From assembly GCF_002234675.1 (NCBI RefSeq), contig NC_019880.2, positions 14,683,756-14,747,755 of the forward strand: a stretch of DNA of 64,000 nt. The letters run 5' to 3'. The position numbers and the translations under genes are program-made. The notes under the pieces are model-generated. The model searched no databases and was not told the origin of the DNA. It was given only the letters and a program-made list of their open reading frames with translations. Below, piece by piece: positions 20,577 through 23,500 of this stretch; within the stretch, counting starts at the first letter, position 1; the number at the start of each line of letters is the position of its first letter. Source of the stretch: Oryzias latipes (Eukaryota; Chordata; Actinopteri; Beloniformes; Adrianichthyidae).

Positions 20577-23500
20577 GTGAGCTGCTGTCGGGAAGGTTAG
20601 CAGACACACCCCACAGGTGTCCTCCAAAAACTAGCAAGAATTGGTGCCCTCCTCATATGTGGCAATGTTCAGCCAAGTAACTTCACATTTTAGACATTTT
20701 TTTTTTCACCTGATGATTCTACCACTAATTCTTTTGTTTCTTTCATTATGTTTTTGGACTTCAGTTGTCTTTCTTTTGGTATAAACACAACCTCTGAGCT
20801 GCTCAGTGGACTTTTCCTTCTCACTCTGCATTTAGACTCCAGGAACTTTTCCTTTTTGTGTGTGTGGTATGCCCAAAAATGCTTTTCTGTTGGTCAGAGT
20901 GAAACATTTTCTGTGACCTCACTTAGCTCTTGTTGGGTCCAGGAAAAACCTCAGCCTCTCCTCCTTCCGGAACGATTCACATTTTTCTGTTTCTCGGCTG
21001 ATTTGCATGGCTGTGCTTCCTGACTTGGCATGTACTAGGGCTTCTGATCTGAATCACGTTAAGCCTGTAATTAATGTGTTCAATTGTGGCTTTTGTGTAA
21101 TAGTGTCTGAATTGAAATGGTAGCTTACAGACTGGAATGTTCAGTCAGGGTTCAGTGTGGTTTGATCTGCCTTCTATTTGGTCTTAATCAGCTACTATAC
21201 TTCCTGTGATGATAAGCACAGAATTGTATTTCAAATGTAATAATGTGTTTGATGATTTTCAGAGTAAGAGCACGAATTGTTCTGTGTAAAAAAGGGGGCG
21301 GGGTGGGCAAAGGGTCATTGAGGGTCATTAAGCAAGGAATGTGGTATATGTGGTTTGTAGACCACACAGTTAACCTAATCAAGGTTAAATCAGCTGAAAA
21401 ATGGAGCAGTAGGAAGTTTATTAGATCCTTAAAACAGGCAGAGTGGATTGGTCAGCATACAGCTAATGTTTAATGTGGATTTGTGACTCGCAACCTTCAA
21501 AGCGGTTCTTTGGAGGACAGAATGTCCATGTGGCAAATGTGACGGAGAAGCCTCCAGTGCTAATGAGTAGAGACTGTGTCATCCTAAATCAGTTGCTCAG
21601 CCTGCAGATAATTAAAGGAAGCAAAGCTCCTTGTTTCTGCTGATTTGCATGCAAGCGTTGAAACGATTTGAGTGGTTCGATTTGGATCAGCACTTAGTGC
21701 CGTACAGCACGCTTATTGTTTGCAGACAGTGGCTTGTGAGCGTTTGCCATGCCTGTTCTAACGGTCTAAATTAGCATGTTGGTGAGTTTCAGAGCTGCAA
21801 ATGACGGCCTTTTTATGAATTTATATCAAGATTTCGAACTGGTGTTGGTGTTTTATCTGGAAAATGTGGTTTGGTACAATGTGTTTGATGACAAACCTCA
21901 TCTAAATCACAGCAAGTGTTGCTCCTTCAGTATAGCAAACTAGGAACGTTTTGTTTGTCAAGAGTTTTTGTATGTCACTCTGACTTTCTCATTCTTGTTT
22001 TACTACTTAAAATAAATTTTAAACTGCTTCTCATATTTTCTACATTTTAGAATAGCAATCATAAAAGTGTTCCGTGTTTCATCGTTTCATTTTGCTTTCC
22101 AGTCTCGCAGCGTGGACAAACAACACGCAGTGATAAACTATTCCTCAAACACAGATGAGCACATGGTAAAAGACCTTGGCAGCTTAAACGGGGTGAGTTC
22201 GTCTTTCTTTAGTACCAAGCAACGTGTCTACAATCGTAAGAAAACAGCACAAGGCATTCTGGAAGTTCTCAACATTTCTCAGGCCACCAAACCTGCCCAT
22301 TTGTTAAAGGGGAGAAATGGAGACTATAGTTCAAAAACTCGTTTTTCTTGGTGGCCCAAAACGTCTTAAGCTCCCCTCCTCTTACTGCTCCGTTGCCAAT
22401 TTATTGCACCACCATTCCAAGGAAATTTAGCTCTGGCCAGTGAGGAAAAACACCCTCATTGTTCTTGCTTGGAATACCTCTTATTGGCTGAAGGAACTGT
22501 GGCCAAACTAATCTGAGCAGAACAGTGAAAGACTTGAAGCTGTAATCCCTCTCCGATTACCTTTTTTAAACTCAGCGTAGGAGCTGCTTTCGGGGCAAAA
22601 GGAGATTTTTAGCTACTGAATTAAAAAATAAAAGCACCACAGAATGTTAGGTGAAGACAAAGCCCATTGGCCTTCTTACTTTTATTTCAACCTGCAGCCA
22701 CAAAAACTGAAGTGTCCTATGAAAGAGCAATCCCATCAGTTTCAATTTTCTTGTGAATTATCATGAGAAAAATGTCAAATGTTTTTGTTTTTCAGACCTT
22801 TGTGAATGACCTCAGGATCCCGGACCAGACCTACATCACTCTCAAGCTGTCAGACGTCATTCGCTTTGGTTATGATATCCTTTTTTTTTTTTAAAGTCTT
22901 CTCATGTTGAAATGTTCACAATTGGCATTTATTTGCATTTTGTGCAACTGAACTGGAGTTGGAAGTTAATCATTAACAGCTTCGCTGATGCAGTGGTTGG
23001 CAGCCATTTCACGCACACATTTATTGTGTTGTCTTTGGGTTTTGTGGTCCCGCTTGACAATGGCATGTTAATCCCTCTGTGGTTTCGGATTATGGTCAGC
23101 TGGCGATGGAGCCTCTAGCACGCTTTGACCACCCCCTCCCCTCACTATGAAAACAGGATAAAATGGCAAAAATATATTACAATATAACGACCCAAAATAA
23201 CTATCTTTGAACAAAACTTTGGACTGTAACAAAGCGCACAAATGTACAACATACATGACGTTTTATGTCTGAGAAGGCTATAAAAATCTTAGTTAATGAA
23301 GCACTTTAACTCTTCATACATTCTCATGTGTATATCTTGGAGAAGAGTCAACACAAGGTCCCTGAAGAAGCTCTAAAAGTAAGTAAATCTCTTTTTTACT
23401 TATTAAGAGAAATACTATATTTTTGATATCAGCTAACATGGAGATTAGTTTTTTCTTAGTGATTAAAAACACCCAAAATACTTGCTTCTGTTGCACATTT

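Follow-up and report, generated by a model that had tools for sequence, protein, structure and literature searches.

The locus considered here, in a 64-kb stretch of medaka (Oryzias latipes) DNA that we call the window, raises the question of which splicing machinery joins two exons that encode consecutive parts of an FHA domain. A sequence-only reading had placed a U12-type AT-AC intron between them, within cep170b. Our analysis favors the same answer: positions 22875-23319 can be read, with a probability that we put at about 96%, as a phase-1, A-type AT-AC minor intron that interrupts a teleost gene of the CEP170 family, most likely cep170b.

Anatomy of the Intron and Alternative Junctions

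The features of the gene that bear on the question lie as follows.

22103-22192, plus strand: exon 2 (in the numbering used here), FHA-coding, ending GSLNG (Pfam FHA, E = 1e-4), then a major-type donor, GGG followed by GTGAGTTC
22796-22874, plus strand: exon 3, 79 nt, including the first base of the Asp codon (aligned to 4jon_A)
22875-23319, plus strand: proposed AT-AC minor (U12-type) intron, phase 1, 445 nt (exon edges, junction enumeration, and paralog comparison)
22875-22883, plus strand: 5' splice site, ATATCCTTT (letters at the exon edge; ATATCCTT identical in 4/4 family genes found)
23302-23310, plus strand: branch-site-like CACTTTAAC, with its A at 23309 (6/9 consensus letters)
23318-23319, plus strand: 3' splice site, AC (letters and enumeration)
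23320-23378, plus strand: exon 4, 59 nt, starting within the Asp (D) codon, then a major-type donor, AAA followed by GTAAGTAA (alignment)
30059-31702, plus strand: open frame with the CEP170 C-terminal domain (CEP170_C; Pfam PF15308, E = 2.2e-66)

The upstream exon ends at 22874 with TTTGGTTATG, and the intron opens at 22875 with ATATCCTTT; at the other side, the intron ends at 23319 with CACTTTAACTCTTCATAC, and the exon from 23320 reads ATTCTCATGTG. The G/AT junction 22874/23320 rebuilds an Asp codon, which makes the intron phase 1. Once joined, the exons encode 46 residues that align ungapped with residues 67-112 of the human CEP170 FHA domain (4jon_A; E = 4.5e-15), with 29/46 identical, indicating that this is the same domain as in PDB 4jon, with no gap across the window junction. 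The donor coordinates and letters given by the sequence-only reading were thus borne out at the exon edge, as was its claim that splicing here restores the Asp codon and the family sequence.

Alternative junctions were assessed by pairing donors at 22816-23259 with acceptors ending at 22860-23374, for introns of at least 60 nt. The enumeration gave 3,578 pairs of six terminal types (343 GT-AG, 285 GC-AG, 720 AT-AC, 511 AT-AG, 529 GT-AC, and 1,190 AT-AA), and each pair that preserved an open reading frame was scored by aligning its product with the 4jon peptide. The top score among all of these pairs, 162, belonged to 22875/23319, and the runner-up was an AT-AA pair with four extra residues and a score of 148. 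Within the enumerated ranges, junctions of the GT-AG, GC-AG, AT-AG, GT-AC, and AT-AA types all scored below the AT-AC pair and were rejected. Frame was kept by 91 of the 343 GT-AG pairs, and 6 of those 91 were open; the best of them, 22856/23342, scored 108 and lost 14 residues, so the earlier claim that no GT-AG solution restores the family sequence holds within the enumerated range. The same mRNA would result if the junction were slid by +1 (TA-CA) or +2 (AT-AT), and recognized termini are present only at offset 0.

Chance Occurrence of the Splice Signals

A word search of the window returned other U12-like donor words at the following positions.

12968-12975, minus strand: ATATCCTT
57064-57071, minus strand: ATATCCTT
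59231-59238, plus strand: ATATCCTT, with AC and branch-like sites downstream
12408-12415, minus strand, and 43548-43555, plus strand: GTATCCTT

Counting both strands, ATATCCTT occurs 4 times in the 64-kb window, where 1.88 occurrences would be expected, and a count of 4 is attained in 14 of 100 shuffles; the plus strand alone holds 2, against 1.18 in shuffles. We also screened for a branch site paired with a terminal AC, using the pattern [CT]TT[AG]A[CT] with its A 8-20 nt from the end, which was picked after the site had been seen. Each of the four ATATCCTT words has at least one passing site 60-1500 nt downstream. Passing sites on the plus strand number 138, versus a shuffle mean of 167.6, that is, fewer than in shuffles, and window-wide the screen was without discriminating power. 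Within 22940-23378, it passed none of the 20 AG sites and 2 of the 30 AC sites, those at 23145 and 23319. The surroundings of the word at 57064 revealed no tie to a coding exon edge, and Rfam gave no match across the window at gathering thresholds. The sequence signals alone are common by chance; what goes beyond chance is their placement at exon edges and their recurrence in four of the four family genes found.

CEP170-Like Paralogs in the Same Genome

Our search of the genome, which covered 734,051,031 bases in 25 contigs and in which locus counts are lower bounds, yielded at least three further CEP170-like loci, on contigs C24, C1, and C15, and the FHA part of each was compared with that of the window gene. 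All four CEP170-like genes found have an intron at the identical codon, GY(G/AT), and in each this intron opens with ATATCCTT, ends with AC, and is flanked by exons 79 and 59 nt long. The neighboring introns, 2 and 4, start with GT in all four genes (in the C24 gene, the exon 4 donor is GTCAGT, at 59 nt). Across the four genes, the lengths of the intron are 445 (window), 250, 147, and 126 nt, and the interiors do not align: blastn matches are confined to the opening 9-16 nt and to short words (E ≥ 0.14). Outside the family, two FHA matches, C22:26186793-26187008 (query 3-65) and C16:23600753-23600881 (query 22-64), are continuous across the site, which indicates that both of those genes are without an intron there. 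Because the same codon and termini are found in 4/4 genes, the minor intron is probably older than the split of the CEP170-like and CEP170B-like lineages, by parsimony and with one genome compared.

FHA identity groups the genes in two pairs, window/C24 (43/46) and C1/C15 (40/46), and the window FHA shares 27/46 residues with C15 and 24/46 with C1. Compared with human CEP170 (4jon), the C15 and C1 paralogs are identical at 41/46 and 37/46 positions, respectively, whereas the window gene, at the 29/46 given above, is less so; the C24 gene shares 28/46. Four CEP170-like genes in two pairs are as expected from teleost duplication of CEP170 and CEP170B. The window gene carries both the FHA domain and the CEP170 C-terminal domain, which places it in the CEP170 family. 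Given that its FHA is closest to that of the C24 gene and less like those of the CEP170-resembling C15 and C1 genes, it is most likely cep170b rather than cep170, an assignment that rests on comparison with human CEP170 and the medaka paralogs.

Other frames were observed in the neighborhood. Upstream of cep170b on the plus strand lie a PH-domain-like frame at 1154-1507 (E = 0.0086, which misses the Pfam cut-off) and a protein-kinase frame at 5504-5821 (E = 1.5e-8); we take these two frames to resemble akt1, which presumably would fit the human AKT1-CEP170B neighborhood. Between this akt1-like gene and cep170b, two open frames on the plus strand, 12155-12511 (118 codons) and 16576-16893 (106 codons), had no Pfam match. 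On the minus strand, a RhoGEF-domain frame is present at 61699-62031 (Pfam E = 2.1e-8), and a long frame at 52568-54007, with no Pfam match, may or may not belong to the RhoGEF gene.

Branch-Like Sites of the Four Introns

The branch consensus of U12-type introns is TTCCTTRAY, expected about 10 to 15 nt from the intron end. In the window intron, CACTTTAAC agrees with this consensus at 6/9 positions and has its A 10 nt from the last base of the intron, and a second candidate, TTAGTTAAT, agrees at 7/9 and lies 23 nt from the end. The C15 gene has a perfect 9/9 site, TTCCTTAAT, 14 nt from the end, and the C1 gene has an 8/9 site, TACCTTAAC, 10 nt from the end. In the C24 gene, TTCCTGAGC scores 7/9 at 12 nt with a G at the presumed branch position; a frame one base over places an A at that position and scores 6/9 at 13 nt. 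A TTRAY core 10-14 nt from the end is present in 3/4 genes, and by letter count, the branch site of the window gene is the weakest of the four. The sequence-only reading was right about where this site lies, with the A 10 nt from the end, but implied a stronger match than the 6/9 that we counted. PMC6717393 gives 11-13 nt as the optimum distance.

Predicted Splicing and Consequences of Retention

In the U12-type class, the donor is read by U11 and then by U6atac, and the branch site is read by U12. In the window gene, ATATCCTTT would be recognized by U11 and U6atac and the branch site, we infer, by U12; the minor spliceosome (U11/U12, U4atac/U6atac, and U5) would then remove 22875-23319 and join the two FHA exons, rebuilding the Asp codon. 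If splicing failed, a stop would be met a few codons into the retained intron, and the FHA domain would be cut short. Conceptual translation through the retained intron gives an early in-frame stop in 4/4 genes, with ILFFF preceding the stop after GYD in the window gene and with read-through peptides of ILQFHTCCVCGN in the C24 gene, ILPV in the C1 gene, and ILHFLSFLLY in the C15 gene. Given the established knowledge of this class and the early stop upon retention, the expression of cep170b is predicted to be dependent on the minor spliceosome, as the sequence-only reading had proposed. Among minor introns examined in zrsr2 mutants, PMC9501576 reports that 444 of 662 were not significantly retained.

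PMC8280824 reports that CENATAC depletion affects 92% of A-type versus 24% of G-type minor introns and that CENATAC is found at centrosomes. The window intron has the same A-type termini as the CENATAC-dependent AT-AN minor introns described in that paper, and since A-type minor introns are reported there to need CENATAC, we predict that the window intron does so as well. Protein families of the minor spliceosome are matched in the same genome. Matches to CCDC84/CENATAC fall in four stretches at C9:4892887-4896480 (minus strand; best E = 4.6e-22); each match contains one or two in-frame stops by count, which may reflect either exon edges or damage to the gene. Matches to zf-U11-48K were obtained at five places, but this family is not specific, since one control genome out of 14, that of Sulfolobus, is matched as well.

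Discussion

The class of the intron was the central claim of the sequence-only reading, and the donor, the AC end, the branch-like site, the FHA homology, and the four of four paralogs agree in pointing to the U12-type class. The major (U2) spliceosome could also excise an AT-AC intron. Its AT-AC substrates carry ATAAG-like donors, and the window intron does not open with such a donor; the ATATCCTT donor of 4/4 genes, together with the TTRAY core near the intron end in 3/4, likewise argues against the major spliceosome. We consider its involvement very improbable here, even with the 85 major AT-AC introns or related subtypes that PMC8280824 reports, which show that major-type AT-AC introns exist.

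It is less probable still, and hardly credible in our view, that the intron is of the GT-AG type with displaced ends and that its AT-AC edges arose by chance. The 6 of 343 GT-AG pairs that keep the frame open would allow for such an intron, but even the best of them costs 14 residues and scores 108 against 162 for the AT-AC pair, and ATATCCTT with a terminal AC is repeated at the same codon in three paralogs. A sequencing error or pseudogene effect, with no real intron at this position, seems just as implausible: our analysis yielded nothing in its favor, four separate loci agree, and the long open frame downstream, with its CEP170_C domain, speaks against a pseudogene. The reading that we prefer thus remains the A-type AT-AC minor intron at 22875-23319.

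This intron is real but belongs to a well-known and well-understood class. With the U12-type AT-AC (A-type) introns described by IAOD/intronIC (PMC7367187) and MIDB (PMC6717393), it shares the ATATCCTT donor, the AC end, the branch-like site near the end, and flanks of major introns. Apart from a branch site weaker than the consensus of that class, we see no substantial difference. According to Table 2 of PMC7367187, the AT-AC share of U12-type introns is 22% for Danio rerio and 26% for human. The window intron may well be listed already in minor-intron databases. Among the matches listed for our literature search, which covered the main text of open-licence papers, none was found that treats CEP170 as a minor-intron gene, and CEP170B had no occurrence among the matches listed for the wider minor-intron literature. 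By word search, CEP170 is absent from the main text of PMC13216214, PMC8280824, PMC7367187, PMC9501576, PMC12332006, PMC10639083, and PMC6717393, and PMC11684760 names it once, in the title of a reference. What the present analysis adds, at the level of genomic sequence, is the finding of both the intron and its A-type termini in each of the four family genes found.

Two consequences may extend beyond this locus. A gene predictor that allows only introns of the GT-AG type would annotate the FHA domain wrongly, or cut it short, in each of the four genes. A broader proposal, which we offer as a speculation that is more likely to fail than to hold, is that the A-type minor intron at this FHA codon has been neither lost nor converted in any of the four CEP170-like genes found, which presumably are vertebrate and teleost duplicates. 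Because all four keep such an intron, a single splicing factor, CENATAC, could control the entire CEP170 family simultaneously, and CEP170 proteins would then mediate some of the defects in centrosomes, cilia, and chromosome segregation that follow loss of the minor spliceosome. With a minor intron common to every family member found, CEP170 proteins may represent candidate targets in minor-spliceosome disease models.
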